DNA of 37,872 nucleotides from a virus: the IMG/VR virus record IMGVR_UViG_3300047491_000158, positions 1-37,872 of that record; one strand, 5' to 3'. A program made the translations under genes and the position numbers. This document shows, in pieces, positions 8,179 through 25,518 of this stretch (position 1 is its first letter; each line of letters starts with the position of its first letter). The notes under the pieces were generated by a model, which worked only from the letters and a program-made list of their open reading frames with translations, made no database searches and was not told where the DNA came from.

Positions 8179-9360
8179 CTATCCTTGTGGAGGGTTAATC
8201 AGAGCTAATGGAGAATTGGGAATGTTAATGATGCTTTGCCCTAATCCTGCCGCCTCAGTCCCAAGCATAAGGCCGTTGGAACCCATGAGTGCAACCACAT
8301 TAGGAACTGTATATACAATCGTTAGACTAATAGGCTCTGCTGAAGCATTTTGTACCGTCACATCAACCATATAAGTTGTGGGATCTTGCGCGTGGGGCAT
8401 CACATTCACGGCTACGATAGAGTACAAACGCTCTTGATAAGTGACTGTTTGGTATTTTGCCTGTCCTTCTTGTAAACTCTGGAATCTCGTAAGTGCCTGC
8501 CTAACATCTTCATTAATGAGATTGGCTACACCAGAAAGAGCCTTTGATCCTATACGGGAGCGGATATTAGAACCATACCAAGGATAAAATTGATTACTTC
8601 CTTTGTCAGTAAGAAGAATCTTTAAAGCGGCTTGATAAAGCAGATTTTCATTCTCTATCATCAAAGTTTGGCCGTTTGGGTCAAACCGATAGTCATTTTC
8701 TACAAATGTTGCTTGGCATCTCAAACACCTGTTTACTGTCGTGCCGTAATTTACCTTGAAAACAGGATTGGTTTTTACAGGCCGAACAAACTTGGGGTAT
8801 TTAACGGTGATAGTATTAGGAGGCACATAAAGCTGCCATCCGGGGTAAAGCACCTTTCCCGTAGCACTTCTAGGAACCCCGTTTGTACCACAATCCACCT
8901 CTCCAAACCCTAATGATGTAGCCGCACTTCCTGACACTCTCACAAAAGAATCAGGGCCAACAGTAGATATGTCCCCAAATTCTAGGTAACCATTAGCATT
9001 ATAAAGCATTCCTACGTCAAAGTTTTTTCGTAAGAGATATTGGATTATCTGGTCTGTAGTTAAACGGTTAACTCCAACGATCCCAAAACTAGTGGTGAAA
9101 GTGCCTTTAGGAGTTGCTATTGTGAGAACGTCAAAGCCTTCTTTTAAGTCAAAAGGTCCAGACACATTACTAAAAATATGTGCCGGAACACTTAATCCGC
9201 CTTGCGGGATAAAATACTCATCGTTAACTAGTATGCGAACAGTAGAAGCGTTACCTATCGGCTCTCTGGTCGGAAGTGAAGTCCGATCTGTACCTAAAAG
9301 AACGACTTCCTCAATAGTCATGTGAGGGCAGGGAAATGCTAATTGTATGTCTCTACTCAT
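8179..9360 (-). CDS. gp25-like baseplate wedge protein with N-terminal extension
   Basis: 393 residues. The C-terminal third (about 225-345) has the gp25/Mu gp46 pattern: a hydrophobic helix ending in KILLTDKGSNQFYPWYGSNI, then a helix, then RLYSIVAVNV and a last strand pair. gp25-type proteins are small wedge subunits that contact the sheath, and their gene normally precedes gpJ, as here. The usual family length is about 100-150 residues, so some 220 N-terminal residues are extra. They include LTTDQIIQYLLRK followed by GYLEFGD and SAATSLGFG (about 100-153), a small alpha-beta fold often seen in phage structural proteins. A CLRC pair (C212, C215), with C11-P-H13 nearby, could bind metal. The start is ATG at 9360 with AGGA 6 nt upstream, downstream of the longest gap in the window. 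The stop is TAG, 4 nt before the J-like start. The role is inferred from motif plus order. Confidence 0.8.
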   Translation of the reverse strand: MSRDIQLAFPCPHMTIEEVVLLGTDRTSLPTREPIGNASTVRILVNDEYFIPQGGLSVPAHIFSNVSGPFDLKEGFDVLTIATPKGTFTTSFGIVGVNRLTTDQIIQYLLRKNFDVGMLYNANGYLEFGDISTVGPDSFVRVSGSAATSLGFGEVDCGTNGVPRSATGKVLYPGWQLYVPPNTITVKYPKFVRPVKTNPVFKVNYGTTVNRCLRCQATFVENDYRFDPNGQTLMIENENLLYQAALKILLTDKGSNQFYPWYGSNIRSRIGSKALSGVANLINEDVRQALTRFQSLQEGQAKYQTVTYQERLYSIVAVNVMPHAQDPTTYMVDVTVQNASAEPISLTIVYTVPNVVALMGSNGLMLGTEAAGLGQSIINIPNSPLALINPPQG

Positions 9361-9414: not shown

Positions 9415-10302
9415 TTAACCCCCTAACGGGTCACGCCATTCAGAGGCAACATCGTTAAATGTAAACTCAAGGAAAGGAACATCGACATTAGCAGTATAAG
9501 ACCTGACTGTTCCATCTGGTTCAGTATCGTAAAGTAAAACATTCATCTCTTGGATCAGATTTTGTACTCTGATTTTAGGATCGAATCTGTTTGTATCAAA
9601 TTCGCTACTGCTAATGCTATTTAAAGCACCTCCAAAGGCTTGAACAAGAATCATATCTCTTTCTTTTTCTAATTGCTCTCGAAGATCACAAAGTTTAACG
9701 ATACGCCACTCAATATCTTGGAGTTTTTCTTTGATTTCCTGATTAGCCCATGACCTTATTTGATTCATAGAGGAAACGATACTGTCAAAATCAAAAGACC
9801 CTTTTGACGTTCTTCTACCTTGTCGGGCTGTATAATACCTCTCGGTATTCAAAAACCCACCCGGATAAGCCCCAAAACCGCTGGATGTTTCTCCGTTGGA
9901 TAAGGGTTCCATAGGTTCGGCTGACATAGGAGCCACTACGCCTCCATTAGGATAGCGGTAAATAATTTTCAAGTTGCCGTTTGCTTCTTTTTCTACTACC
10001 TCTGCACAATCGGGTTTCATAAAAGAAGATATGTCTAAAGGGTTACCTCCGTTAGCGATATAAGCTTGACAAAGGCATCCTAACGATGAGTCGGGTGTGA
10101 CTGAAAACCCTGTCCTTTGTTCTGTAGGTGCGTTAGCACCCTCATCTCTGCGATAGGTTACGGTAATGTAACCGATACGATCTAATTCTGCTCCGATGAC
10201 ACTTAAACGTGCCGCAATCTCTTTCCGATTACGAAGCAGCCAGCTTGAGTAGGCTCGAAAGTAACCTACCGGCCAAGTGTTCGTCTTGCTAAAGGTTGCC
10301 AT
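9415..10302 (-). CDS. Coiled-coil structural protein of unknown function in the baseplate cluster
   Basis: 295 residues, no family recognised. The N-terminal stretch (1-50) is basic and helical (WLLRNRKEIAARLSVIGAEL). A Cys-containing segment follows (C76, C78 and C99, with LGCLCQAY). Residues about 171-225 form a charged helix with heptad-like spacing (EIKEKLQDIEWRIVKLCDLR), long enough for a coiled coil. The C-terminus is short and beta-like. No signal peptide or membrane span is visible. It starts with ATG at 10302 behind a GAGGT site 5 nt away and begins 8 nt after the stop of the 994-residue gene, so the two are almost certainly co-translated. It is the last gene of the unassigned block before the gp25-like gene. 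A linker or trimerising baseplate part is plausible, but this is a guess from composition and position. Confidence 0.65.
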   Translation of the reverse strand: MATFSKTNTWPVGYFRAYSSWLLRNRKEIAARLSVIGAELDRIGYITVTYRRDEGANAPTEQRTGFSVTPDSSLGCLCQAYIANGGNPLDISSFMKPDCAEVVEKEANGNLKIIYRYPNGGVVAPMSAEPMEPLSNGETSSGFGAYPGGFLNTERYYTARQGRRTSKGSFDFDSIVSSMNQIRSWANQEIKEKLQDIEWRIVKLCDLREQLEKERDMILVQAFGGALNSISSSEFDTNRFDPKIRVQNLIQEMNVLLYDTEPDGTVRSYTANVDVPFLEFTFNDVASEWRDPLGG

Positions 10303-10310
10303 AATCTACC

Positions 10311-13295
10311 TCACAAGGTTTCTGGAGGAACGTCATCCCCCGGTGGTAATGCAGGTGGTGGTAAAGGCGGTCCTACTGCGGCTGGAAACGGTGGTGTTTC
10401 TGGTGCCATATACCCACTAGGTTCTTCATTCGTCCAAATGAAAAGGGCCTTTATTAAATCAAGTACGAAAGGCGCACCCACCGGCATCACTATTGCAATA
10501 CCGGCTCCATACGCTAATGGACTATCACTTGGTTTGTTCTTGGCAGATACAAAATCACTTAACAAACCATCTGTGCCATTAGATACAAGCATAAGTCCAG
10601 ATGCTTTGGGTATCTGGAAAGCAAAAGACAAGATGGATTGAATCAGGCTATTTATTCTGCGAAGTAGTTGTTGTAATTCCACAATTCTTGCCTCAATAAA
10701 CTCTATGTATTTCCTGATTGTGTCTACAATAGAGGTCAAGGTTGCTCTGACTGCTTCTACCCAATTTTGGATGGATGCGAAGAAGTCCTGCATACCCGGC
10801 AAGGTGTCGAAGAATCTATATGTGAGCCATTGACCGTCTTGTTTGGTTCTCTTTAATGCCGCAGTTGCGGCACCTAACACTAATGCTGCTTGGTCTAATA
10901 GTTTTTGATTGGATGTGCTAGAAGTAAAAAGCCCACGACAATAGATAACAGCCGCATCTTGAGGTTGCATAAATAAATTTTCTAGGACAGGAGTGTTTAT
11001 ATAAAGCACAGGTGAGCTATCAGCAGACCCTGCCCTATCATATTTATGTGTCATATCTGTAAAATAATTCTCTGCGATTGCAGGAATTTTAATAGACCCG
11101 TCAGGTTGAATAGATTTCTCATAAAAAATACGAAGGCTAGGCGCACCATATTTCATAATGGCTTCTGCTTCTTTTTTTGTTGCTGTAAGAGAAGCCGTTG
11201 AGAATGATTCGTCTGTAGGTGCCACCTCTTGCATTTGAGGCAAACGACCTTGGATAACTCCTTTGGTGGTAAACAAAGAAGATACTGAATCAGGGGTTAC
11301 ACCTATACAAAAAGGATTAATACCTATTCCACTTTCTCCATAAACAGGTGTTGCAACAGACTCCCAAAGGGTTTGTTCTCCAAATGAATTTCCTTTCCCC
11401 ATGATAAGAGTTTGTGTGTCTAAAGTCGAATTGAGTTTCATTTTATATTGATGGTTATTGTAAGAAGATTTTTCTAGCACAGTACTCCAAGTGGTTTTAC
11501 GAAGTTCCTGTGTGTTATCCACAATCATTTTTTCTAATTCAGGCATAGGACCAGAAGCATCGTACAAATCCTGAACAAATGCGTCTATGTGCTTTCGGAG
11601 GTAATTGATAAAGTCACTAACCTTGGCGTTTTTGGCTTGCAAGGCTGTCTGATAATCTTCAAAAAGTATACCTGTAAGTTGTCGGAAATCTTCTAACCCG
11701 CAACCTTCAAGACAAATACCGGGTAAAAGAACCTTGTTGTTCTTGACTGCTTCATAAAGAGTTGGAGTTAAAGTTGGTTTGATTTGGTCTAGAGGTATTA
11801 AATCAGGACGAACCAGAACCAGCAGCAACAAAGCAGTTTTGAGAGCCTTGAAATATTCCTGTGTGTTAGCGTTAGGAAAGATTACTTGCACATTGTTTGA
11901 GAAGGCACTCAAATCACTAGGGGAAGTCCCACCTTGTATTAAAGGAGCCACAGGAAAATGCAATCCTGTACTGTCTTTCATTGTCTGAAAAGCAGTTTCT
12001 GCAAAGTTGTAAACAAAACTTTCATTCTTTATTATATTTGCATTGTAACAAGAAGCGACTCTAACATAAACTGTTGTAGCAGGGCCAGCATCAGTAAGGG
12101 TCACTTGCCCTGTAACTGAATCAACTGTCAATTTAGCATCGTGAGGTAAATCGTCCATTTTTAAGTGGAACATAAATTGATTTGTAACCCATTGATTCCC
12201 TGTTTCTGCGGCTGACATATAAAACATTCTCTGGAAATAATACTTGCCATCTTTTTTCAAGTATTCCAGAGGGACAGGGGCGTTATCAGATACAGACCTC
12301 AAACCATAAACACGAGTTCTGCCACTCTTTAACTTACCGTCTTGAAAAGAATCAATGTAGTTGATGTCACTATTAACCAATACGTTATCAGCACCTCCAT
12401 AGATAACAAGAGGTTTGCCTGTATCTTTTTCCCGAACGGCACCATAGTTACGGGGTTGCTGTTTTTTAGCAGGGTCATTTGTATTAGGTGCCATCTTGGT
12501 TGATGACATTGGTCTATCAAAAAACACAGGAAGCCCATTAGGGAAGGTGGATACTGTTATGATAAACCCCTTCGGGGGCATGGCAGGAAAAGGATTGAAA
12601 GTATCAATAGGAGTTGTTTGATTGAGAGTCCAACGTATCTCTGCTATTTGGGGTGGAGTGCCATTAAATCTTGTTAGATAAGACCCCAAATCATAAGCTG
12701 TCATAATATTTGCTGTCGATGATCCGTAACTTATAGAATTTATTGAAGGGACAGGATAACCTCCCGGCTGTAAAAATTCTTGATTAAAAAACCCCATCAG
12801 TTGTTTGATATATGCGATGAGTCGCATAATTTCAGATATGTCTACGGACATATAAAAGAACATCCCAAATGTAGTTGTCAAACTTGAAACATCAGGACGA
12901 GTCGGGTCTGTCCTATCAGTCATACGGGCAATCATTCTTCGTTGATATGCTTGAAAGCCACCTTTCAAATCTTCATAAGGGTAGTTAAGAAGTTTCCAAT
13001 CTCCGGTCATATACAAACCCATCTGCCGGATGTCATTGACTAGAGCTGTTATCTCATCCAAGATAGCTTGTACCGCCGCTACAATAGGATCAAGAAACCC
13101 TATCAAGAAAGATTTGATAAAGTTTAATATCTTTAAGGCTATATCCAGAACTGAAATCAGAAATTGAAAAGCATTGTTGATGTTGTCCCGAATCGGTTTG
13201 ATGAAATCAGGGACTTCAAAGGAGATAGTTCCCCATTGATTAGTAATCTCACCAACCGCTTCCGATCCTGTTATTCCTGTCAAATCCGTAGGCAA
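10311..13295 (-). CDS. Large structural protein with helical ends and proline-rich tail, unknown function
   Basis: 994 residues, no recognised family. Long amphipathic or hydrophobic helices occur near both ends: about 30-95 (ILNFIKSFLIGFLDPIVAAV) and about 840-902 (IEARIVELQQLLRRINSLIQ). The latter is followed by a Gly-rich hydrophobic stretch (AYGAGIAIVMPVGAPFVLDL) and a Pro-rich C-terminus (GPPLPPPALPPGDD). The middle is mixed, beta-rich, with no repeats I can see. The start is a TTG at 13295. An in-frame TGA at 13307-13305 lies just upstream, and a GAGGTG site (13306-13301) stands at proper spacing, so no ATG or GTG start is available nearby. It follows the 79-residue gene after 27 nt. 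Position suggests a virion or baseplate protein. The helical ends might pack as a bundle or touch membrane, but nothing seen decides this. Confidence 0.65.
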   Translation of the reverse strand: MPTDLTGITGSEAVGEITNQWGTISFEVPDFIKPIRDNINNAFQFLISVLDIALKILNFIKSFLIGFLDPIVAAVQAILDEITALVNDIRQMGLYMTGDWKLLNYPYEDLKGGFQAYQRRMIARMTDRTDPTRPDVSSLTTTFGMFFYMSVDISEIMRLIAYIKQLMGFFNQEFLQPGGYPVPSINSISYGSSTANIMTAYDLGSYLTRFNGTPPQIAEIRWTLNQTTPIDTFNPFPAMPPKGFIITVSTFPNGLPVFFDRPMSSTKMAPNTNDPAKKQQPRNYGAVREKDTGKPLVIYGGADNVLVNSDINYIDSFQDGKLKSGRTRVYGLRSVSDNAPVPLEYLKKDGKYYFQRMFYMSAAETGNQWVTNQFMFHLKMDDLPHDAKLTVDSVTGQVTLTDAGPATTVYVRVASCYNANIIKNESFVYNFAETAFQTMKDSTGLHFPVAPLIQGGTSPSDLSAFSNNVQVIFPNANTQEYFKALKTALLLLVLVRPDLIPLDQIKPTLTPTLYEAVKNNKVLLPGICLEGCGLEDFRQLTGILFEDYQTALQAKNAKVSDFINYLRKHIDAFVQDLYDASGPMPELEKMIVDNTQELRKTTWSTVLEKSSYNNHQYKMKLNSTLDTQTLIMGKGNSFGEQTLWESVATPVYGESGIGINPFCIGVTPDSVSSLFTTKGVIQGRLPQMQEVAPTDESFSTASLTATKKEAEAIMKYGAPSLRIFYEKSIQPDGSIKIPAIAENYFTDMTHKYDRAGSADSSPVLYINTPVLENLFMQPQDAAVIYCRGLFTSSTSNQKLLDQAALVLGAATAALKRTKQDGQWLTYRFFDTLPGMQDFFASIQNWVEAVRATLTSIVDTIRKYIEFIEARIVELQQLLRRINSLIQSILSFAFQIPKASGLMLVSNGTDGLLSDFVSAKNKPSDSPLAYGAGIAIVMPVGAPFVLDLIKALFIWTNEEPSGYMAPETPPFPAAVGPPLPPPALPPGDDVPPETL

Positions 13296-13300
13296 AATAA

Positions 13301-13306
13301 CACCTC
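13301..13306 (-). promoter_or_regulatory. Ribosome-binding site deciding a TTG start
   Basis: GAGGTG on the minus strand, 5 nt before TTG at 13295. An in-frame TGA at 13307-13305 overlaps the site, so the 994-residue gene cannot start further upstream. This makes the TTG start secure. Confidence 0.7.
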
Positions 13307-13322
13307 ACCCTATCACTATACC

Positions 13323-13562
13323 TTAACTACCGCCCCCGTACTGCAACCTAGTCAACTGCTCACGCAAACCTGCAATCCTCTGATTATCCTCTTTTATTAA
13401 AGTTTCAAGGATGGTTTTGAGTTTGTTTAGGGTTTCAATTTGAGTCGCTGCCATTGGAGAAACGACAACCTGTTCTGGAGTTTCCTGCCAAGTGCCATCG
13501 GGAACCCCATGTGTCTTTAACGCTTCTTTAAGTTCTTCTGCTGTCAGTTCTTTGTTACTCAT
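13323..13562 (-). CDS. Small helical protein between two giant structural genes
   Basis: 79 residues. The N-terminus is acidic and helical (ELTAEELKEALKTHG); residues about 38-72 form a second helix with heptad-like spacing (LNKLKTILETLIKEDNQRIA), and the end is GGGS. It overlaps the 3' end of the 3,780-residue gene by 8 nt (ATGAGTAA), with a GGTGGA ribosome site 8 nt upstream inside that gene. Overlap plus a good ribosome site supports a real, translationally coupled gene rather than a shadow. Size and composition fit a small coiled-coil adaptor or chaperone for one of its large neighbours. That is inference; no family is recognised. Confidence 0.7.
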   Translation of the reverse strand: MSNKELTAEELKEALKTHGVPDGTWQETPEQVVVSPMAATQIETLNKLKTILETLIKEDNQRIAGLREQLTRLQYGGGS

Positions 13563-16500
13563 TGAGTTTGTCCACCGTTGCCATGAGAGTTGCTAGGTCT
13601 TTTTCTTCCTGTCGTTTCTTGGGTAACGCAATATCATACTGCTGTATCTGACTTAATGTGCCATAGACTTTGTTAGTTCGGTAATTAACCCAAATATAAC
13701 GGCTATCCCTGAATTTGTCCTTCTTATTTAGAATCTCGTTTATCCAATCGAGCAGAATAGGACGATCAGGTGAGGGATCACTATTAAATGCGGTATAGGG
13801 ATCAGATGGTGGAACCGCAGGCCATTTTCTCATCTTGGTTGGATTAGTAGGGTCACTAGTTAGCCAGTCAAGCCTTTCATCCCCTATCCAGAATCTCCTA
13901 TCGAGTAATGACATACAACCTGAATTGTTAGCATAGGGGGCATTCCAAACCAAGCCTGTCATATCTGCCAGCAGTTCATCCGAAGGAACACCCAAACCAA
14001 GTTCGGGGTTATCAGGATTCCCAAGATTTTCGATATGCTTATCCCGCTGGAAGATAAAATAACTTCCAGACTTCCAACCAAGCAGGAAGATGTTGATCAT
14101 CTCAATCCAAGTTAGCATACGTTCTCTGGTTGAAAGTATCACATCTATTGCTTGATCCGAAAATAGTTTGGAAGGCCGGATAATCTTATATGAGAAGGGT
14201 CTGACAGAATAACCATCATTGGCGTAGGTTCTGTTAATAATGTCCCAACTTGCAGTCGGGCGCAAGTCCATCTGTCCTTCTTCTTGATAAGGTGGGGTAG
14301 TAGAAGAAACTGTGGGGTAAACAGTATACTCATAGCCGTTACCACCAAAAATCACAGGGTCATCGAATGTGCCTGCAAATGTATTGACAGGGTTGATTTG
14401 CAGATAGGTTTCAGGGGTGTTTACTACAGATTGAACTCTGTAATAACCTCTATTGTCATCCAAAACTTTAGGGTGTCCTGCTACATAAGGCGGTGTTGAT
14501 CTGTCAGGCACAGATTGATCACCTATGGGACGGAAACCTCTCTCCGGTGGATGTAAGGCCGTCTGCCCTGTCGGAGGCGGTAACCAACCTGCGGGATCAA
14601 TTAGGACAATATCTCCTGCGGCTACACCTAATGCGCTGAACGTGCTGGTGTTACTATCATCATAAAGTTTGTTAACATCGTCAGCATAAATACCTGTTGC
14701 TTTTACATACCCACCTGTTTTGTCACTATAATGGGCATTGGATTGTAAGACTAATTTATCAGTTAGCATACCTAGTAACTGTTCGTTAGACTGTTCATGT
14801 GGCACAGGAGAATTTTGGATATATATCTCAAATCTGCTGTTGGCAGCGTCAAAAGGTTCAACTAATACAGGTGGGTTAAGTGTTATCGTATAAGCGTTCA
14901 TCACTTCTTTGATGATACGTTCTTCGATAACATTCCCGTCCTCATCTAACCTGCGGAAAGTATCGCCTGCTTTGACATTAACATCTGATGATGTGAAGGG
15001 GCCAAGATTGGTTCCATAATGGGGTCCTGTTCCGTCATACCAAACATCAGCAGGCTTCGGGTAAGAAGCATACCAATTCATATAGAAGCCGTTAGCTGTG
15101 ACAGTAGTGATTTGGCTATCAGCATCAGCCGAAAAAGAATTCATAATTCCCCTACGAATCTCATAGACATAACGTAGGGGTTCTATTTCAGATAAGCCGT
15201 TCTCTAATACTTCATGGAAGCGTCTAATGCTTTTGACGGTGAAAGATACTTTTTCAGGGGTGTTGGCAGGTATTACCGCACCTGTATCATAAGCGTTTGC
15301 CGACCGCATCCCAATATAGCGTTCGTAATCGTAATAAGTGGTGTCGGGGTCAGGTAAGAAGTTGCCGTTATAAACAACTAGAGGCTTTGTGTAATTCAGG
15401 TCCATACAGGTTCTTGGCATAGAGGGTTCTAGAAAAACCCCTTCTTTTGCTCTGAATATACACTCCATTGTAGTGGATGGCAGGATACAAGGAACAGCTA
15501 ATGTGAGCAGACCTGAATCAGTATTTATTTGTTTCCATTGGTCTGTTGTGATCTGTGTCAAATCCAACAGATATGGAACATGGCTGTATATAGGGTCTTG
15601 CGGATTAGATTTGAAATTGTAACTGAAATTATGTTCATTCAGATTGGCTTCTAAAGCTCCAACTCCAACTCCTGTTGCCGGTGTTGAAACGGGATAGATG
15701 TTGTCAGATCCCCCAACAGTAAAGGTGTTTGCACCCTTTCTGGTGAGAATTATTTGATGGAATCCAAATATAGACCCTGTACTTAACGTGTCATGTAATC
15801 CCACACAGTTGTTAGAGGGTAAATTGGGGTCATATTCAGTTATCGCATAGCTATTGCAAGACACGTTTACAGGGACATAAGACATTCCTGTGACATAAGT
15901 GGAAGCTTGAGCAATATCTCTAAAAGTTGTTGCTAGAATACTTGTACCAGCACCGTCTGTAAAATCTGTCACAGTAAGAGTAGAAGTTAGCACATCAATA
16001 TTTGTAATCTCTCCCGATGTAACCGTATTGGTTATTTGGGCGTTATCTGAAAAATCATCTCCCCGTATTATGTATAGACGTTGCCCTACTACGAAACCGC
16101 TCCCATTAAATACAGGGGCAAGATCAGTTAGAATCACATCTACAGATGTTGGAGTGTTAACGGTTGCATCCACAACTGTTGGGAAGTGAATAGGACACCA
16201 ATCAGTATTTGATCCGGTAATTGTTGTCCTTATACATTCGTAGTAATTGGCTGTGGAACTTTTTATAGCATGACGTACAATATAAGTGCCTACTTTTGTC
16301 GATGCTATATTAGTTGCATCGGCTGATTGGCTAATTACAAGGGTGTCCCCTTTTTGGACGCGATTTAAAGACCCACTCGCTACTGTTATGTTTTGTATAG
16401 TGCTGTCTAGATTACGGCAATTATTTGTTACTGCTACACTTGGGTTAAAGTAACTTTCTGTTTCTCCTGTGCCGCTACAAATGGCAAGACTGTTTCTGGA

Positions 16501-19500
16501 AGAAACAGAAGGTGCGACAGAAAACTCTGCGTTTGTTGCTGTAATAGAGGTGTTGTTATATCCCTCAAAAGCCATAACTTTCAAGGAACCCTCTTCAGAT
16601 AACAGTATTGTTTCCGCAGACCAATTGCCCCCTGCTGAATGATTTGCCACCAATTCTCTAGGCTTAAAAGTAAAAGGATAAGGGATATGAAACCATAAGA
16701 AATTAAACCAACCGTTGACCCATTTATTTATTGAAGATTCAGAGATAACTCCTGTGTTATAGCCGACAGATACTGTATTAACTACTAAACCTGTTTCCAA
16801 TAACAAACCAGAAGTCGGATAAGTATATCCTCGCTCTTTAGCATGGCGTAAATCAATTGTTTCGTGAAAGGTTAGTCGGTCAGTATCTATCCAAGCGGTG
16901 TCAGAAGCGACTGCTTCAATGTCAAATGAGTATTCAAAGCCGTATAATGTTTCCCATTTCTCCGTAGGACCTACACCTGAAACGCTGTAAGGTAAAAACC
17001 AAGCGTTAGTTGGGGGTGTGCCAACACCCCAAATCGGAAAGTAAGCATCTATGATAATCTGTTTGTTGTCAGCGGGGTTTACAACTATGGGGTAACTTAC
17101 ACCAAACTGTACGGGGTTGATAATAACACCATTGTAGAATCTACCTGCCCAATCTTCTACCTCTACAGTAAGCGTTCCTGTCCCTTTTATGGTAAAGGTC
17201 AGCACAACTTCTCCACCCGGTTGTTGCCACGGATAAGGAGGTGTTTCGGGAGGAGGTGGGTAATTTAAAATATCATCGTCCCATCGAGCTATGAGTTTAA
17301 TTTTGATTGTGTTGTCAGAATCAGACAAATAAATGTTATTAAGGTTGCCCACCCCTGACAATAAACCATTGTTAAGAGAGAAGTCGGGAACAGATGAAAA
17401 ATCTAAAATGGTTGTGGGGCGACCTGTGGGCGCATAGTTAGGGTAATAAACCAATTTAACACCAGCTAAAGGAAGATGGCTTTGAGGATGCCCATCATCG
17501 GATGAGTGTTCCCCATCAACAAAAACCATAGCGTTTTCAATAGTATATCCAACAGGAGAACCCGTATTTGGTAGTGGAGGTGCTATGGGAGGTGTTGTTT
17601 GTGTGACAAAGCGTGGAGGTTCTATCAAAGAAACCTCATTTGCTGCGTCATACGATACATCCCCGATAGTCCAGATACCTTGAGGCCCACGAACAGGGAC
17701 TCCATTTGAAAACTTACTTGGTGCTTCTGATTGCACAAAAAGCAAATCAAACTTATCAGCACCTTTAAGGGGTGCTGCTGGTTCCTCATTAACAGAAGTC
17801 ATAAGTGTTGCTGGTATTTCAGTTGGGGAAGCGTAAGTATCTACTACCCAACCATCAATAGCAAGTATTTCTTGAGGGTAATCCTCAAATTCTATGATTG
17901 GCATAGGGGATAATATAGTAGAAAGGGATAAGAATTCTGGCATGACCGATAGGCACTTGTATTCAGAATTACCTGTTGCCATATAGGGGATTTGATAATC
18001 CCCAGAATCGTCTTTATCCGAGCCATCTAAAGCAGGAATATGTAAGGGCTTTGCAGAATCATAGAAGAAGTTAATCTCCCCACCAATGTAAGACATAGGT
18101 AAAGGCGGGTTTTGCCCTAGTAATTCTTTAGGTGCTAACGGATTGTTAGGGGTAGTATCATACTTTGATGGGAAAGTAGTGTCTATTATTTTACCGTCAC
18201 TCTGAACAAGCAAATCAAAACCATTTCTGTATCCGGGTAAAACTTTAGCTTGATCCTCTGTGGATATAGGTGGTGTTATCTCTTTGAGTAAAGAAGGAAC
18301 CTCAAAAATTGTATCTCCCTGCCTAATTGGAAAATTATCAGCCTGTATACTTGTTGTATCTGTTATGCTGACACAAACATTGTTCGGTGCAACTACTGCG
18401 GTGCCTTGATCATTTTTGAATAGTATTACACAACCATATTTAACCTCTTTCACGAACAAACCCATATAACGAGTATCGTACACCCTAGCCGTTACCGCAG
18501 GATAAATGCTCCCATCTGGTTGCCCCCAAGATACCTCTGATCCGGCTGTGAAGCCGGGAACAAACATAGAGGGGTCGCCTTTGTTGGCATCAGGCACCGT
18601 TCCGGTGCTTGTTAGAAGTTGGTATTGGTCGGGGAACCCCGTTTCTGGATTTATTGGCACATCCCCTAAATTACAGGGGAATGCAATCACACAAGGTTCT
18701 AAAATAGCCGGAGAGGGCAGGGGTGGCGTATCATCAGTATAAAATTTTCCTGCTTCTATGCCGTTAGGGAAATAACCCCATATTCTCGCTCTTGCCCTTC
18801 GCTGGCTTAAATCGGCAGTAGATACATTCTTTATGTCACCCACGACAGGGTTCTTTAACTGCCCTATCGGTTTACCTGTGGTTGACCTTAACTTGCCGTT
18901 ATACATCCTGCCTGCTGAATAGAAGCCTACGTTAGAAGGCGGTACAGCCCCAATACCGGGGAAGGTCATAGAGAATGATTCTGTTTGAGTTGGGAACAAT
19001 CTTGAGAACTGTTGTGGCTCAAACATATGTTTATAAACGCCATAGAGATTCAAGTTTGTAATATGAGAGTTGTTGTAAAAAACAGACTCTAATACAGGCT
19101 CTCCCGCCCCTGTAAGAAGTAGGTCGTCTATATCATTTCTGACTAAAGAAGCTTGAGCATACATAAGAGGGTCTAATTGCTCCAAATTTATAGTAATATT
19201 TTTAACATCAGCTAAAATTCCCGAAGGAGCGTATATCAACTCATCATTCAAGTAAGCCGTAGCAGGGTCTATTAAAGGGTCTGTTGTCTGATAGATAAAC
19301 CAAATCCCAGACTGCGAGGAGAACACCTCGGAGAACAGGTTTCTGGTTATTAAATTGCCAGAGATAGAATCTTCATATCCGGGGGCAGGATATTGCATCC
19401 CGTAGCCAATCCAGAACCGGAATTTACCATCTCTATCGCCTATGTACCCACCTGTAATTGCTTCTTCTATCTGTTCAAAATATACAATAGTAGAATTGTA

Positions 19501-22500
19501 AAAATCTAATATTCTACGAGCCGCCCAATCTTTATCACAAAGGTCTTGGCGTTGAGCTATCAACCCTATACGTCCTTGATCCCAATTCTTACTGCTGGAT
19601 GTTGTTCTAACCGGCCCATTAGCTGCCTTGCTTGCCTGCATTTCTTGAACGGCTTGTTGAGTCACTTCCCCCACATATTGTTTCATCGTAGGGATTGCAA
19701 CATAGTAAGTATCAGGATTCCTGTAAGTGTAAGTGCCAGATAAAGTGCTACCTAACACTCCATTGACATCATCGGGAATGATTCCATTCAGGAACTCTGC
19801 GGAGATGCGTGGGCAAATCACAGCACCGTTAAGTATAAATGGCTGTAATGTTGCCTGCTTAGTAAAAGATAGAATGAGTTTCTGATAGGGTTGTAGAGCA
19901 TTTTGCATGGGTGAGAGTAATTCTATATTTCCTGTGGTGTAGTCTATTTTGTAATCAGTATTGGGAGTTAATGTTTGCCCCGGAATACCTTCGCTGTAAA
20001 GAATCAAAGTTACAGGTTCAGTATCTAATGTAGGCCCACAGCCTATGAATTTTCTTGGTTGAGGTGGGTAAACAGGTCTGTAAGATAACTTGATAGTAGG
20101 ATTGTCTGCCACCGTGAAGTTTTGTTGGAAGGTAGAGGTGACCGAAATGCTTGTGTACATCCCGTCATCAGAGAGTTTACTTTCGGCTATTGTGAAAGGG
20201 CAGTTAGCTACTTCTAATAGATTCCCCGGAACCGCAAACTGCATCAAGTCGCCTTGAAAAACAATGTTTCTTTGACCCTTGCTGACCGGCTGGAAAGGGA
20301 AAACAGTCAAGTCTATAGTTGACATGAATCCTGCGGGGGCAGTCGTTAGAATTGGATTTAAGGGATCATCAGGGTTAGGCACTTGTGTTGTAACCGGCTC
20401 TGCTGAAACTACGGTAATGATGTCATTACCGGGCGCACGACTTCCAACTTCATTGACCGTTGGGGGGTAGATATAGATGCCTGTGATGTTACTCTGTTCT
20501 GTGCCATCATAAGGGTAATACTGCGTCTTTTGGATATAGAAGCAATCTTCCCCTATACGGAGCATCTGACCTGCTACAAACTCGTTTGCCCTGTCACCTC
20601 TTAAACCAAAGCGTTTCTGCCCCGCTGTGATAAAGAAAGGAGGACGGTAAACAGGTTTCAGGCTGGATTCGTAGCCTCTCTCACCACCAAGGGCTTCCCA
20701 AACCGCATAGTTAACAACTACTTGTTGGTAATCGGGGAAAGTTTGTGCTGTGAACGTGATACAACCTAAACCATTTAATTCAGGTGGATAAGCGACTACA
20801 AAATCTGTTCGTCCAAAGTTTTGTTGAACAGCACCTACTGTTACTATCGGCTCAATGCGCTGATCAACTGTTCTTTTAGCGGCATTGAACGTATAAGAAT
20901 TAGGACCTACTTTCACAGCAACTTCGTTTCTAACAAACACAGGCAGGAATTCTGTGATTTGCGGTTCTACTTTTGCACCGGACAAGTCAGCCATCCAGTA
21001 TTCAACTTCAATAGCTGCACCTGTAGGAACCGGAGTAGAGAAAGAGAAGGCACCGAGTAAGGGGCTGATAGCAACATCCTTACGCCCCTCTGTAATCATC
21101 TGCTGGACAAAATAAGCTTTTATCCCGTTAAAGGCATCCATATCTTCTTGGGAGAAGTTCAGGTAACCTGTAATAGGACTAAACTCGACTGTTAAAGCAG
21201 GGACATCAGTTGCTGGCTGAAATTCTTCAACATAAAGAACATCAGCCGAGTTATATTGGGTCAGAATCAGGCTTCCAAATCTAATTGTTCCGGTTGCATA
21301 AGTATTCCAAGGACTGATTAAATATTCAATGTGATCGTAAGGGTCTGTGCTGAAAGCAGTAACCCCAACCAATTTGCCGCTTGCATGAGTGAATGTATCT
21401 GCCCCAAGCTGTAATGAGAATGAACCTGTGGTGAACCGTGCGTTGGTTGTATTTGGGATGACAAGAACATTGTTGGCAATCGTACCTAATGAAGTTTTAG
21501 TCAATGCGACCATCTGTGCCGTATTGAATGCTGTCGCTTGCACAAGACCATATCTGATGTTGATAGGTCTGCCGCTGGCAAGAGCCTCAGCCACGTTTGC
21601 TTTTAACGTGGGAGTTGTTTCCGTTGCCGGTAAAACACCTACAGAAGAAAGCATCCTGACTTTGAAGGGTTCAGTCAGAAGATGATTAAACTCCTTATAA
21701 ATCATATCTGCTACTAGTGAGGGGTCATAAACACTATCAGGATAACCTGTATAGGCTCTCCAAACTACAGGTGTATCCGGTGTTGCGGCAACAGGGATGT
21801 TTAGTTGCAATTGATGGTTTGTAATTACCTGTAATACAATGTATGACCCTGAAATACCTGTGTTATCTATGTCTATCCTGTAACCGGCTTGAATAGGATG
21901 TGTTACATCAAGGAAATCAACAGAAGTGTCAGTAAGAAGGTCACTTCCTTGTATGACAATGCCTTGTGCGCCAAAAGTAACATAAGCACCATAAGTTTCT
22001 GTCAGTATGGCTGTGCCGGTAGTACCACCTTGAGGCAGGATAAAATCAGTATCTAATGTCTGGAATTGTAAAGTCCCACCATCTTCTGTGACATACAAGC
22101 CCTTACTTATTTGCGGATTGCCATAGAAAGATTCAGGAACAATTGCGGTTTTGCCGAAGGCTATTGTGGACGTGGCTTTCTCTATTCTCGCCTTGGAAGA
22201 AGATGCCTCTATCCAATCAAATTTCTTTTGGTCAAACCTGTAAATAACATCTTCACATTGGATGAGATATTTTTGAACAAGTAGAGCGTCCTCATCTTCT
22301 TGTGTGGCTACGAGAGACTGGCTGAAATAAACACCATAATCGTAACCGGGAACATCCTGTAAAGGAACATGATCCAAAAATACATAAGGGGTTCCTGATA
22401 CGGAGTTTTGCAAAACCTCATCTGTGATTCTGATTTCATTTTGAACATCAGGAATGGGTAACGTGCTGTCAAGATTAGCAGGGTTGCGGAAGAATCCAAA

Positions 22501-24897
22501 ACTGATACCAGAATCAGGAAGCCAAGAGGTGCAAGGTTCATAAGGGTTAGTTGCCGCCCACCAACCGGGGATAAAACCTAATGCTGTTGCACCAGACAAA
22601 TCTATAGGGTCAGTAGGAAGATTGTTCCAAAGGATGCCGATAGCAATGTTACCACTTTGGGGAGAAAGAACTAAATATCCGTTTTCAACAGTACAGAGCC
22701 ATTGATTCCCTACAATTAAATCAAAATTGTCTTTTACTTCCTCTGCGGTATAAAAGGGTTTCCAAGGGACATCATCCCATAAATAATAAGACGACCAAGT
22801 TCTTACAATAAAAGTAGAACCATCAAACAACCCCACATAAAGGGTATCACATTCGGCCTCATTAGCCCCGTATTTGAATCGGAAAATATCCCTGTTACGG
22901 GAATAGAGCTTGGGTTTTGTATAAGTAGGAGGGTAAATCATAGAATAGGCAGGAGTGAGTGACGCCTGTAAGAAATAGAGTTTTTCTCCCTCAAGTTGCT
23001 GTCTTGCCTCTGTACCTATCTCTACGGGAGAACCTAGATAATTACCTACCACCCCATAATTATTCTTGGCAATATAAACATCCCCAAAAGGAATCAAATC
23101 CTGATTTGGAAAATCTTGGACAATAGCGTCTTGGAAGTCTACTGTATGGAGATTAGGAAAAGCACCTTGACGAGTAAATACTATCGTATCCCCAATACCA
23201 TCGTCTATTTGGCGTATCAATCCTGTATTTATCTCATCTACTTTATCGCCTTCTGGTCTGACAGATGCCGCTTGATATGTATCAAAACCATCAAAACCAT
23301 TAGGGATAGAACCCGTCCCATCGGGAACCTCCAACACACCTGACTTACCTAACCCTTGCGAGGGACTTGTAAACGCACCTTCTTCTGGTAAGAAAAAAGC
23401 ATTTCCAAGATACATACTAGAACCGGCATCTATGCTGTCAGTTATGATTCTTGACGGACGCAAAGGTTGTGGCACACTATTAAGTGCCACCCCATCGTAA
23501 ATCACATCATTAGAAAGATACTGCTTGTCAAACAAGGCACTATTTGGGTTTGCTAGTGCTATGTCATTAGGGTTAAAACGTATCTGCCCTGTTGTCATAG
23601 ACACAACAGCCGAACCTTGGGTGGGGAAAGTGTTTAATAGCGTCTGGTCATTACTTACAAGTTGTACAGTTAGGTATTTCCTGTTTCCAAATCGAATAAG
23701 AGGACAACCCATCGGGTCAGGTAGGGGGGATAAGAATAAAGGTTGTGAATCAGCACCTAACATAGAACCCACGATGCCATCTGATTTTCGGTCAAAGTTG
23801 CGGTAGTAATACCAAAGAGTCTTGCCTGCATGAAGTTTCACATACGCAGGATTGAATTGTAGTTTGCCATTGAATTGCCCCATAACACCGGATAGTTCAG
23901 GATACGGGCCGAAGTCAAAATCTGAATCAAGCATGTTATCTGCAAAGACTTGTATGCCCTTAAAAGACCCGTAACTCTGTTCATCTCCTATGCCGATACT
24001 GCTGGCGGCACTAGGATTAGAACCTAATCTGAAAACGGAAAAGGTGTCAGAAAAAGTAGGGTTTCCAATACCAGATAAGTAAGCTCCTATTGGTAAGTTT
24101 GCTATGCGGGGATACATTTGATACTTTAACCCAAGCATCAAAGGCCCCAAGTTCTTAGGTGATCCGCCCTTAAAAGGCTCCCATCTTAAAGCAGTAGCAT
24201 TCCAACCGAAGCGGGTCTGATAACGGTCATTTCTGCTCCACCAGAATGTAGCGGGGGCTAAAACGTATTGGACTTGAATAATCTGGTCACCACGCTCTGA
24301 TGAGATGCCACCACCTAATGAAGTTATGTCTGCTGAATCTGTTATCTTAAAAGTGTTATTGGTTGATGTAGGGTTATCCGTTTGTAAAAAATAAAGATAA
24401 GGTTTAGTCCCATTCCTACCTAAACTTGGATCGTCAGGATCAACCCAACCCTCATCATTGTAGTCGTGAACATCACCACGAGCTACGACCAACGATATAA
24501 CGTGATCAAGAAGTTTACTCTCGTTATTGGTAACTCGAACAGCAAGAGAACCGTCAGTATATGTGCCTACAACAAGAGTATTTGGGACTACGGTGTAAGT
24601 GCCGGTATCAATCCACCAATCGTTATCTGTGCTATAAGCAAGTTTACCGGAATTAGCTACCCAAACAAGATATTCTATCGGGGTTGTGCCGGGAGCATCA
24701 AGAGAAGCTACCCTATATTGGTCTGCGGAGGCATCTGTAAAAATAGGATAGGAATCTCCCTCAAACAGATAAGGATCAAGACTTCTAGTTTTGCTTATGC
24801 CCCTAACAACACCAGCATTTACCTCGCCTGTTGTGGCGGCATTTACAGGTGAAACTCTTGCACCCCTAATGACTTTGCCAGCAAATTTTGTACTCAT
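13555..24897 (-). CDS. Giant (3,780-residue) beta-rich virion protein in the baseplate cluster
   Basis: An uninterrupted frame of about 11.3 kb. The ATG at 24897 is preferred over the adjacent in-frame TTG at 24900 because GAGAGAG then has better spacing. The 203-residue gene stops 9 nt upstream. The protein is almost wholly beta-rich, with no signal peptide and no membrane span. Short modules recur: strand-turn motifs such as MTTGQIRFNP, PITGYLNFSQ and DYTTGNIELLS, and 'GDxLxI...GxYxVxxV...LxL' modules near 997-1050, 2843-2897, 3303-3362 and 3427-3530. The last 200 residues turn helical and charged (TLMATVDKLNE at the end). Similar small beta modules appear in the leftmost wedge protein, supporting a baseplate role. 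Because it lies between spike and gp25 genes, it could be a peripheral baseplate ring, a fibre platform or a long flexible fibre. No catalytic motif is evident and I recognise no family for the whole protein. Confidence 0.8.
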   Translation of the reverse strand: MSTKFAGKVIRGARVSPVNAATTGEVNAGVVRGISKTRSLDPYLFEGDSYPIFTDASADQYRVASLDAPGTTPIEYLVWVANSGKLAYSTDNDWWIDTGTYTVVPNTLVVGTYTDGSLAVRVTNNESKLLDHVISLVVARGDVHDYNDEGWVDPDDPSLGRNGTKPYLYFLQTDNPTSTNNTFKITDSADITSLGGGISSERGDQIIQVQYVLAPATFWWSRNDRYQTRFGWNATALRWEPFKGGSPKNLGPLMLGLKYQMYPRIANLPIGAYLSGIGNPTFSDTFSVFRLGSNPSAASSIGIGDEQSYGSFKGIQVFADNMLDSDFDFGPYPELSGVMGQFNGKLQFNPAYVKLHAGKTLWYYYRNFDRKSDGIVGSMLGADSQPLFLSPLPDPMGCPLIRFGNRKYLTVQLVSNDQTLLNTFPTQGSAVVSMTTGQIRFNPNDIALANPNSALFDKQYLSNDVIYDGVALNSVPQPLRPSRIITDSIDAGSSMYLGNAFFLPEEGAFTSPSQGLGKSGVLEVPDGTGSIPNGFDGFDTYQAASVRPEGDKVDEINTGLIRQIDDGIGDTIVFTRQGAFPNLHTVDFQDAIVQDFPNQDLIPFGDVYIAKNNYGVVGNYLGSPVEIGTEARQQLEGEKLYFLQASLTPAYSMIYPPTYTKPKLYSRNRDIFRFKYGANEAECDTLYVGLFDGSTFIVRTWSSYYLWDDVPWKPFYTAEEVKDNFDLIVGNQWLCTVENGYLVLSPQSGNIAIGILWNNLPTDPIDLSGATALGFIPGWWAATNPYEPCTSWLPDSGISFGFFRNPANLDSTLPIPDVQNEIRITDEVLQNSVSGTPYVFLDHVPLQDVPGYDYGVYFSQSLVATQEDEDALLVQKYLIQCEDVIYRFDQKKFDWIEASSSKARIEKATSTIAFGKTAIVPESFYGNPQISKGLYVTEDGGTLQFQTLDTDFILPQGGTTGTAILTETYGAYVTFGAQGIVIQGSDLLTDTSVDFLDVTHPIQAGYRIDIDNTGISGSYIVLQVITNHQLQLNIPVAATPDTPVVWRAYTGYPDSVYDPSLVADMIYKEFNHLLTEPFKVRMLSSVGVLPATETTPTLKANVAEALASGRPINIRYGLVQATAFNTAQMVALTKTSLGTIANNVLVIPNTTNARFTTGSFSLQLGADTFTHASGKLVGVTAFSTDPYDHIEYLISPWNTYATGTIRFGSLILTQYNSADVLYVEEFQPATDVPALTVEFSPITGYLNFSQEDMDAFNGIKAYFVQQMITEGRKDVAISPLLGAFSFSTPVPTGAAIEVEYWMADLSGAKVEPQITEFLPVFVRNEVAVKVGPNSYTFNAAKRTVDQRIEPIVTVGAVQQNFGRTDFVVAYPPELNGLGCITFTAQTFPDYQQVVVNYAVWEALGGERGYESSLKPVYRPPFFITAGQKRFGLRGDRANEFVAGQMLRIGEDCFYIQKTQYYPYDGTEQSNITGIYIYPPTVNEVGSRAPGNDIITVVSAEPVTTQVPNPDDPLNPILTTAPAGFMSTIDLTVFPFQPVSKGQRNIVFQGDLMQFAVPGNLLEVANCPFTIAESKLSDDGMYTSISVTSTFQQNFTVADNPTIKLSYRPVYPPQPRKFIGCGPTLDTEPVTLILYSEGIPGQTLTPNTDYKIDYTTGNIELLSPMQNALQPYQKLILSFTKQATLQPFILNGAVICPRISAEFLNGIIPDDVNGVLGSTLSGTYTYRNPDTYYVAIPTMKQYVGEVTQQAVQEMQASKAANGPVRTTSSSKNWDQGRIGLIAQRQDLCDKDWAARRILDFYNSTIVYFEQIEEAITGGYIGDRDGKFRFWIGYGMQYPAPGYEDSISGNLITRNLFSEVFSSQSGIWFIYQTTDPLIDPATAYLNDELIYAPSGILADVKNITINLEQLDPLMYAQASLVRNDIDDLLLTGAGEPVLESVFYNNSHITNLNLYGVYKHMFEPQQFSRLFPTQTESFSMTFPGIGAVPPSNVGFYSAGRMYNGKLRSTTGKPIGQLKNPVVGDIKNVSTADLSQRRARARIWGYFPNGIEAGKFYTDDTPPLPSPAILEPCVIAFPCNLGDVPINPETGFPDQYQLLTSTGTVPDANKGDPSMFVPGFTAGSEVSWGQPDGSIYPAVTARVYDTRYMGLFVKEVKYGCVILFKNDQGTAVVAPNNVCVSITDTTSIQADNFPIRQGDTIFEVPSLLKEITPPISTEDQAKVLPGYRNGFDLLVQSDGKIIDTTFPSKYDTTPNNPLAPKELLGQNPPLPMSYIGGEINFFYDSAKPLHIPALDGSDKDDSGDYQIPYMATGNSEYKCLSVMPEFLSLSTILSPMPIIEFEDYPQEILAIDGWVVDTYASPTEIPATLMTSVNEEPAAPLKGADKFDLLFVQSEAPSKFSNGVPVRGPQGIWTIGDVSYDAANEVSLIEPPRFVTQTTPPIAPPLPNTGSPVGYTIENAMVFVDGEHSSDDGHPQSHLPLAGVKLVYYPNYAPTGRPTTILDFSSVPDFSLNNGLLSGVGNLNNIYLSDSDNTIKIKLIARWDDDILNYPPPPETPPYPWQQPGGEVVLTFTIKGTGTLTVEVEDWAGRFYNGVIINPVQFGVSYPIVVNPADNKQIIIDAYFPIWGVGTPPTNAWFLPYSVSGVGPTEKWETLYGFEYSFDIEAVASDTAWIDTDRLTFHETIDLRHAKERGYTYPTSGLLLETGLVVNTVSVGYNTGVISESSINKWVNGWFNFLWFHIPYPFTFKPRELVANHSAGGNWSAETILLSEEGSLKVMAFEGYNNTSITATNAEFSVAPSVSSRNSLAICSGTGETESYFNPSVAVTNNCRNLDSTIQNITVASGSLNRVQKGDTLVISQSADATNIASTKVGTYIVRHAIKSSTANYYECIRTTITGSNTDWCPIHFPTVVDATVNTPTSVDVILTDLAPVFNGSGFVVGQRLYIIRGDDFSDNAQITNTVTSGEITNIDVLTSTLTVTDFTDGAGTSILATTFRDIAQASTYVTGMSYVPVNVSCNSYAITEYDPNLPSNNCVGLHDTLSTGSIFGFHQIILTRKGANTFTVGGSDNIYPVSTPATGVGVGALEANLNEHNFSYNFKSNPQDPIYSHVPYLLDLTQITTDQWKQINTDSGLLTLAVPCILPSTTMECIFRAKEGVFLEPSMPRTCMDLNYTKPLVVYNGNFLPDPDTTYYDYERYIGMRSANAYDTGAVIPANTPEKVSFTVKSIRRFHEVLENGLSEIEPLRYVYEIRRGIMNSFSADADSQITTVTANGFYMNWYASYPKPADVWYDGTGPHYGTNLGPFTSSDVNVKAGDTFRRLDEDGNVIEERIIKEVMNAYTITLNPPVLVEPFDAANSRFEIYIQNSPVPHEQSNEQLLGMLTDKLVLQSNAHYSDKTGGYVKATGIYADDVNKLYDDSNTSTFSALGVAAGDIVLIDPAGWLPPPTGQTALHPPERGFRPIGDQSVPDRSTPPYVAGHPKVLDDNRGYYRVQSVVNTPETYLQINPVNTFAGTFDDPVIFGGNGYEYTVYPTVSSTTPPYQEEGQMDLRPTASWDIINRTYANDGYSVRPFSYKIIRPSKLFSDQAIDVILSTRERMLTWIEMINIFLLGWKSGSYFIFQRDKHIENLGNPDNPELGLGVPSDELLADMTGLVWNAPYANNSGCMSLLDRRFWIGDERLDWLTSDPTNPTKMRKWPAVPPSDPYTAFNSDPSPDRPILLDWINEILNKKDKFRDSRYIWVNYRTNKVYGTLSQIQQYDIALPKKRQEEKDLATLMATVDKLNE
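13571..13576 (-). promoter_or_regulatory. Ribosome-binding site for the 79-residue gene
   Basis: GGTGGA on the minus strand, 8 nt before ATG at 13562. It lies within the last codons of the 3,780-residue gene and supports coupled translation of the small downstream gene. Confidence 0.55.
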
Positions 24898-24906
24898 CAA
24901 TCTCTC

Positions 24907-25518
24907 TCATATCACCACGGAGTTACTAACTCCGGTTCCGGGCAAGGGTGGGATAGATGGTGTTCCTACTACCGTTCCTATTCCTGCCCCTTGCATGAGT
25001 AATGAAGCAATCCCGTTTCCTAACCCCGCACACATGGACGGTAAAACCGCCCCACTTCCTCCCATCATCCCTGACAAGTTTGCCAACAGTAACGGTACAA
25101 GTGTCCCTGCATTAGACACAATTATTTTAGAACTATCGACACCTATCCCCACACCTCCTACAATACCAGAATATTGCCCTGCGGAGTTAAAAGCCTGTGA
25201 AATACCTAATGTAACAACCGTTGCCAAACTAGGCATAAGTTGCCCATTGAAACCAGCACCAGCCAAAGCACCTGTCATAATAGGAATTGTTGGGGGAATG
25301 ATAATTTTGCTTGCTGGCACAGCTATCGTTCCTGCCCCTAAAGTTCCTGTTGCAATCCCCATCAAAGCAAGATTTTGAGGTTGGTTTATTGCCCAAGAGG
25401 ACATGGCATTAGAAAGTCCCCAAGCGAATTGATCAAATAAAGAACCCATAAAAGCAAACCCACCAGAAGCCCTATTTGCTGCTAATGGCCCATAAAAGAT
25501 TTGGGGGGAAAGTGCCAA
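24907..25518 (-). CDS. Gly/Ala-rich hydrophobic repeat protein next to the spike; candidate spike-tip or baseplate part
   Basis: 203 residues, rich in Gly, Ala, Leu, Ile and Pro with almost no charge. Two units of about 60 residues are visible (70-129 and 130-189), each opening with SKII and carrying a PS turn, a G-I/L helix and a Gly-rich end. A weaker third unit (10-69) shares the helix: GLSNAMSS, GISQAFNS and GLGNGIAS align at 34, 105 and 165. The C-terminus is GTPSIPPLPGTG. The start is TTG at 25518, 2 nt after the spike gene's stop, with GGAG 7 nt upstream. Tight linkage to the spike gene suggests it works with the spike. A three-unit monomer could cap a trimeric spike as PAAR proteins do, but no PAAR motif is present. 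Alternatives are a membrane-active protein or a cytoplasmic assembly factor. Confidence 0.7.
   Translation of the reverse strand: MALSPQIFYGPLAANRASGGFAFMGSLFDQFAWGLSNAMSSWAINQPQNLALMGIATGTLGAGTIAVPASKIIIPPTIPIMTGALAGAGFNGQLMPSLATVVTLGISQAFNSAGQYSGIVGGVGIGVDSSKIIVSNAGTLVPLLLANLSGMMGGSGAVLPSMCAGLGNGIASLLMQGAGIGTVVGTPSIPPLPGTGVSNSVVI
24952..25311 (-). repeat. Two diverged 60-residue coding repeats in the 203-residue protein
   Basis: Residues 70-129 and 130-189 align with SKIII/SKIIV at exactly 60-residue spacing and GISQAFNS/GLGNGIAS also at 60. The DNA itself is diverged, so the duplication is old. A third, weaker copy may precede them. Confidence 0.55.

Follow-up and report, generated by a model that had tools for sequence, protein, structure and literature searches.

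The window studied here, that is the whole stretch of 37,872 bases that was analysed, comprises a complete virus record and is probably a fragment of a larger genome. All of its large genes lie on the minus strand (Table 1) and follow the overall order of Mu/P2-type contractile tails, in which tape measure, adaptor, hub, spike, gp25, J and wedge genes succeed one another. The spike and gp25 genes of Mu are adjacent, but in the window they are separated by 16 kb containing five genes, termed here g203, GIANT, g79, g994 and g295. The preliminary description of this DNA had reported five tightly coupled genes (of 203, 3,780, 79, 994 and 295 aa) exactly at the spike/gp25 junction, and the coordinates of the reading frames and their spacing agree with it. 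The gaps comprise 2 bases between spike and g203, 6-9 between g203 and GIANT, 27 between g79 and g994, 8 between g994 and g295, and 54 between g295 and gp25; GIANT and g79 overlap by 8 bases, and the putative hub and putative spike genes by 4. Terminator-like sites were not in excess (11 observed, against 17.1 expected from shuffles). The GIANT frame more likely starts at the ATG at 24897 than at the TTG at 24900, since the other six members of its alignment also have methionine there. A start of g994 at codon 14 was rejected, this codon being GTT, and a 66-base gap derived from it is void.

Table 1. Genes of the window, listed from the tape measure to the wedge
Gene	Coordinates	Strand	Length (aa)	Remarks
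Tape measure	35064-37778	-		PhageMin_Tail match, below cut-off
Adaptor	34345-35067	-	240
Adaptor	32952-34358	-	468
Putative hub	27944-32950	-	1,668
Putative spike	25521-27947	-	808	named from gene order
g203	24907-25518	-	203	directly after the putative spike
GIANT (G3781)	13555-24900 (TTG) or to 24897 (ATG)	-	3,781 or 3,780
g79	13323-13562	-	79
g994	10311-13295	-	994
g295	9415-10302	-	295
gp25-like sheath initiator	8179-9360	-		N-terminal extension present
J-like wedge protein	4641-8174	-		TIGR02243 match below cut-off, and phage homology
Wedge protein	1-4641	-		truncated at the window end

The baseplate genes that the preliminary description had recognised on either side of the block were correctly named, though the support from family models is weak. 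The gp25-like protein matched the Pfam model Sheath_initiator at E 1e-4, under its curated cut-off, and the J-like protein and the tape measure matched TIGR02243 (E 3e-6) and PhageMin_Tail (E 1e-5), likewise under cut-off. By tblastn, we identified relatives of gp25 and J in Bacillus phage G (gp187 and gp188) and in Tunturiibacter phage Tunturi_5 (ORF242 and ORF241). A gp25-like gene followed by a J-like gene is a feature of contractile tails of the Mu/P2 type, and was found in the window and in 81 of the 83 gp25 clusters defined below. The spike had no Pfam or PHROG match and the hub no Pfam match above cut-off; the hub matched a "tail protein" of Tunturi_5 (E 2e-20). Both identities are putative, drawn from gene order, from the Tunturi_5 match of the hub and from sequence character.

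Several further features of the flanking genes were observed. Within roughly its first 400 residues, the hub has a stretch that resembles a lytic transglycosylase by eye, without confirmation by Pfam, and the shorter hub of locus L019 aligns from about residue 393. The two adaptors (468 and 240 aa; 32952-35067) are related to one another (hhalign 100%, E 8e-69). The wedge gene extends beyond the window end and reaches its full length of 2,031 aa in contig L024 (10960-17055); this contig (L003/L024) is 100% identical to the window in g994 and J. Wedge homology is divided between two open reading frames ~0.6-3 kb apart in several relatives (e.g. L025, L027, L028 and L030), and in a gp25 relative of L069/L070 (7703-9199), residues 103-184 of the N-terminal part resemble the wedge (E 2e-19).

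Proteins encoded by the five genes

The earlier statement that none of the five proteins matches a known family held in Pfam, PHROGs and NCBIfam, weak matches of g994 and g79 aside. GIANT, its alignment members included, gave nothing usable in these collections, and neither did g203 nor g295 (the latter also via its alignment members); g79 had only short matches below cut-off. A profile search of PDB chain sequences with GIANT, g994, g295 and g203 yielded nothing credible.

GIANT is a protein of 416 kDa and pI 4.6. Its full length is 35-44% identical to the window protein in a seven-member alignment, and its C-terminal part is alignable across 18 members at 18-42% identity. Nine of the 13 distinct complete open reading frames of the family measure 3,525-3,837 aa and two measure 2,115 and 2,189 aa; the remaining two (366 and 1,589 aa) could be pieces. 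In a search of whole records, the GIANT frame spanned 3,525-3,939 aa in 12 of the 13 matching records and 2,262 aa in the other. We modelled the C-terminal 1,181 residues, obtaining a weak model (mean pLDDT 57, pTM 0.39) that is beta-rich with a helical end, and whose best PDB fold match has a Z of 7.5. At E<=0.001 this weak model also matched viral folds in 23 rows, of which five are named tail-fibre, J-like or wedge-initiator and most others are unnamed or uncharacterised; their TM-scores are 0.04-0.10, and therefore the rows indicate at most a common build with the GIANT C-terminus. PDB rows for ATP synthase and EF-Tu (small domains, Z under 8) were left uninterpreted, and the same low weight was given to phage baseplate and tail-tip chains (Z 6.3-6.9). 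No known fibre or adhesin gave a profile match to GIANT, and the fold rows are weak and concern the C-terminal 1,181 residues only.

We additionally identified similarities between GIANT and the proteins encoded downstream of the block. Residues ~660-795 of GIANT resemble residues 57-189 of the gp25-like protein, in its N-terminal extension (hhalign 88.7%, with an E of 2.6e-6 that is the value for that single comparison among 378), and another part of GIANT resembles the wedge (hhalign 61%). The wedge profile also matched GIANT relatives in L114, L116 and L191 (E ~1e-6), of which L114 and L116 share their layout.

For g994, a model of mean pLDDT 70 and pTM 0.53 was obtained, with long helices predicted towards each end and, within residues 178-474, an FnIII-like fold (VIA, rmsd 2.5 over 94 residues, at a Z of 8.6 that is barely above the best values of 7-8 common for this fold search). 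No viral fold matched the model at E<=0.001. Residues 17-87 matched a tape-measure PHROG (phrog_4200, E 4e-4), as did 5 of 20 alignment members; the match is limited to 71 of 994 residues, whereas a PHROG 4200 tape-measure protein should match over most of its length. Distant g994 relatives in two large genomes contain Ig/HYDIN stretches (PF22544), seven in G009 (E 6e-57) and four in G010 (E 6e-29), mostly N-terminal of the g994-matching region. The g994 relatives of L076 (2673-7364) and L077 (3200-7009) have seven and four HYDIN/ASH-type Ig stretches, respectively, and the L068 copy has a weak tblastn match to phage hydrolases (E 2e-6) inside its Ig repeat region. In L234 (9728-12520) a single open reading frame covers g79 and g994, reflecting either a true fusion or a sequence error; L240, of similar layout, has two frames, and the single frame was given no weight as evidence.

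The remaining products are smaller. g79 is charged and ends in a C-terminal GGG, a motif found within the last six residues in 71 of 75 distinct complete members. g203 is rich in glycine and alanine and strongly hydrophobic (GRAVY 0.79). A 1,046-aa "g203" of L108/L124 was considered as a spike-g203 fusion and rejected, as the spike profile misses this frame and the spike match lies in a different one. g295 is conserved, with a charged conserved stretch at ~180-220 in the alignment inspected by eye; a match to yeast RSC8 (PDB profile, E 8e-4) covered only ~40 residues and was dismissed.

Gene order among relatives

We investigated the distribution of the block in IMG/VR and in other collections. 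A scan with the single g994 protein returned one contig only, 100% identical in g994, and alignment queries reached far more. The first alignment-based scans yielded 13 loci for GIANT, 3 for g994 and 52 for J; with larger alignments, the best 80 of 141 (spike), 95 (g994) and 181 (g295) stretches were kept per query, so that the sample is skewed towards closer relatives. Within the phage collection, the 485-kb uncultured record LR745208.1 was the sole one with tblastn matches to both g994 and GIANT of the window (E<=1e-3). A scan of bacterial and archaeal genomes found one locus (L084, 1-6930), a 6.9-kb contig in an Actinomycetota MAG with the order GIANT end, g79, g994 and g295. This contig may come from a phage and have been binned wrongly, and its binning is possibly a hint of the host.

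Families were assigned by iterated HMMs on the open reading frames of 305 loci (L001 excluded). Anchor genes were clustered at 90% identity, and a cluster was positive if any member had the neighbour on the same strand within a set distance; the denominators below count clusters with enough sequence, and the counts are not independent of each other, as anchors come partly from shared contigs. The relatives, mostly from IMG/VR, showed the recurrent order HUB-SPIKE-g203-GIANT-g79-g994-g295-gp25-J. Hub was followed by spike in 63/68 clusters, and spike preceded by hub in 60/64. Downstream of spike we found g203 in 53/64 clusters and GIANT within 5 kb in 52/60, while g203 and GIANT were linked in 60/63 clusters read forwards and 59/60 read backwards. 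GIANT was followed by g79 in 73 of 76 clusters and by g994 in 75 of 76, and g994 had GIANT behind it in 62 of 65. The linkage of g994 to g295 (78/83 forwards, 75/84 backwards) and of g295 to gp25 (79/83 and 79/84) was similarly frequent. Many of the misses had no recognised family nearby, including all nine for g295 to g994. A gp25 gene within 3 kb downstream of spike, as direct adjacency of the two would give, was found in 0/64 clusters, and one within 2.5 kb of hub in 2/67.

Twenty records were additionally searched whole with profiles. We identified g203 in 15 of them, g994 in the same 15, the C-terminal part of GIANT in 13, spike in 14, hub in 14 and g295 in 17. The full HUB-SPIKE-g203-GIANT-g994-g295 order was present in nine records (G001, of 536 kb, G006, G011, of 358 kb, and G014-G019). 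The synteny comparison recommended in the preliminary description thus places the block genes together between spike and gp25 in most of the sampled relatives.

Departures from the contiguous order

We also compared the window with individual phages. LR745208.1 has relatives of all five block genes (GIANT at 3,642 aa) and of gp25, J, wedge, hub and spike, but they are dispersed: the core lies at 230-244 kb on the plus strand and g203 at 227 kb on the minus strand, inverted relative to GIANT; g295, gp25, J and wedge run from 269 to 259 kb on the minus strand, hub is at 315-320 kb and spike at 470-473 kb. In LR745208.1, G002, G005 and G013 alike, the GIANT-(g79)-g994 core is located elsewhere, on the strand opposite g295, and g295 keeps gp25 as its neighbour. 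The idea that the five genes form one unit is therefore not supported: they occur together in most relatives, but the core and g295 are separate in these four records. Scattering in related phages, named beforehand as grounds for abandoning the idea, was seen for part of the group, and the core was intact in those four records. As g295 retains its gp25 neighbour where the core has moved, these arrangements suggest that g295 is mostly better counted with the gp25-J-wedge group, and that the movable core is GIANT-g79-g994, usually with g203.

Two distant records, G009 (211 kb) and G010 (416 kb), keep the order of the nine records above; their g203 and g295 matches are weak (E 8e-5 for g295 of G010), and an additional gene of 482 or 467 aa lies between spike and g203. 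Their giant slot is filled by proteins of 1,976 and 1,442 aa, respectively, for which hhalign found no credible relation to GIANT (best value 35%, between a piece of the G009 protein and gp25), and the slot is therefore better conserved than GIANT itself. Among the other whole records, G003, G004 and G012 have g295 without the core and G007 gave no match to any gene searched for; all four measure 24-96 kb and may be fragments. In a further lineage (L051, L052, L053, L065 and L074), the hub adjoins gp25 with no block between them. Its member G008 (53 kb; L052, 4282-13504) has the hub directly before gp25, and block, spike and g295 were not found there. L051 has a partial g295 relative (19616-20035) ~10 kb from J on the opposite strand, an exception to the linkage of g295 and gp25.

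In Bacillus phage G (gp183-gp189), relatives of the 468-aa adaptor, hub, gp25, J and wedge occur in the same order, but a single gene of 334 aa (gp186) lies between the hub-like gp185 and gp25. GIANT, g994, g203 and g295 were not found within the 50 kb searched, and gp186 was not picked up as a spike (hhalign 3.6%). Tunturi_5 shares the gp25 and J relatives, and has large genes (1,003, 1,246, 1,969 and 1,106 aa) between its hub match and gp25. Six of the intervening proteins were compared with the block profiles by hhalign, and none matched credibly (best ORF252 with g994, 30%); the words "mass spectrometry" and "baseplate" are absent from the main text of the Tunturi_5 paper (PMC11924767).

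The direction of change was considered on a quick tree of J, with a midpoint root for drawing only. It comprises 54 rows (41 different), after removal of 12 loci that were duplicate or partial and of J fragments below 700 aa, among them that of phage G; 28 rows were labelled as block, nine as no block upstream (two of them from one genome), four as hub-gp25, one as other and 12 as undetermined. The nine no-block-upstream loci fall within one 14-row clade (SH-aLRT 99), the other five rows of which carry the undetermined label. Block loci occupy deep branches, and block versus no block amounts to one change, other labels uncounted. Since the loci without the block form a single clade and contiguous loci occupy the deeper branches, contiguity looks ancestral in this group, with relocation as the derived state, if the root lies outside the 14-row clade; a second departure would be the hub-gp25 lineage. 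The proposal that the block was acquired later accordingly finds no support within the group, its contiguous order looking ancestral on the J tree with that root. An insertion between adjacent spike and gp25 genes before the group arose is compatible with the single 334-aa gene of phage G.

A possible role in the baseplate

It is reasonable to read these gene arrangements as a conserved structural module, since the genes lie at the exact spike/gp25 junction and occur together in most relatives. Position, coupling, conservation and domain similarity together make a structural role in the baseplate the best reading, and we put the probability that the block supplies the contractile-tail baseplate with an additional structural part at roughly 0.6. 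The near-zero gaps, the shared strand and the location inside the baseplate cluster support this role, as does the core staying joined where the remaining cluster is dispersed. The predicted FnIII-like fold of g994 and the Ig stretches of its relatives might fit an exposed structural protein. Evidence to the contrary comes from the weak model of the GIANT C-terminus, the lack of a viral fold match for g994, the slot proteins unrelated to GIANT and the hub-gp25 lineage without the block. Under the baseplate reading, GIANT (~416 kDa) would form with g79 and g994 a ring or set of arms, plausibly outside the spike and hub; g203, encoded next to spike, would be a small hydrophobic partner, and g295 a wedge-side component acting with gp25. 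The products would be in the virion, on the baseplate, where they may aid attachment to the host surface and relay a trigger to gp25 and J, leading to sheath contraction. More tentatively, GIANT, g79, g994 and g203 could represent an undescribed baseplate layer, built as a ring or set of arms on a protein of >400 kDa and already present in the ancestor of a broad group of large uncultured phages.

The size of GIANT, the beta content of its modelled part, the Ig/FnIII domains of g994 and its relatives, and a few tail-fibre rows among the weak viral fold matches would also suit a receptor-binding apparatus, in which GIANT is an unusually long fibre or adhesin and g79 and g994 are connector and adaptor, with no baseplate ring. 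Adhesins usually have variable ends, whereas GIANT aligns over its full length at 35-44% identity and in its C-terminal part across 18 members, and we consider such an apparatus rather unlikely. It is improbable that part of the set leaves the virion along with the DNA or serves as tape-measure or chaperone-like proteins, with g994 and g203 active at membranes. The long helices of g994, its weak tape-measure PHROG matches (E 4e-4; 5/20 members) and the strong hydrophobicity of g203 agree with such roles, but the PHROG match spans only ~70 residues, g994 has an FnIII-like domain, and the window encodes a distinct tape measure (35064-37778, PhageMin_Tail below cut-off). The least probable explanation, in our estimation, is non-structural cargo that landed by chance in the baseplate cluster; the lack of family matches, the relocation of the core in one clade and the hub-gp25 lineage with nothing in between would be expected of it, but the order is kept in 75/76 and 78/83 clusters, the block persists in deep branches, and there is domain similarity to gp25 and wedge.

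The baseplate of contractile tails is commonly portrayed as a small conserved core to which fibres are added. In these uncultured phages, which include huge ones, the five-gene run probably supplies the injection machine with an additional, as yet undescribed component, and a conserved module around a ~3,800-residue protein without a family model in the libraries searched points to a large and unstudied portion of that machine. Among the titles and abstract openings of open-licence PMC literature on jumbo-phage baseplate order and giant baseplate or tail proteins, we found no description of the block. A survey of huge phages (PMC7162821) mentions in passing predicted proteins as long as 7,694 aa, some of which it tentatively regards as structural, and the block assigns a place to one very large protein of this kind. 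If the reading as an undescribed baseplate layer is true, the slot between spike and wedge would be a recurrent site at which large phages enlarge their firing machinery, since in distant members this slot holds other large proteins (1,442-1,976 aa).
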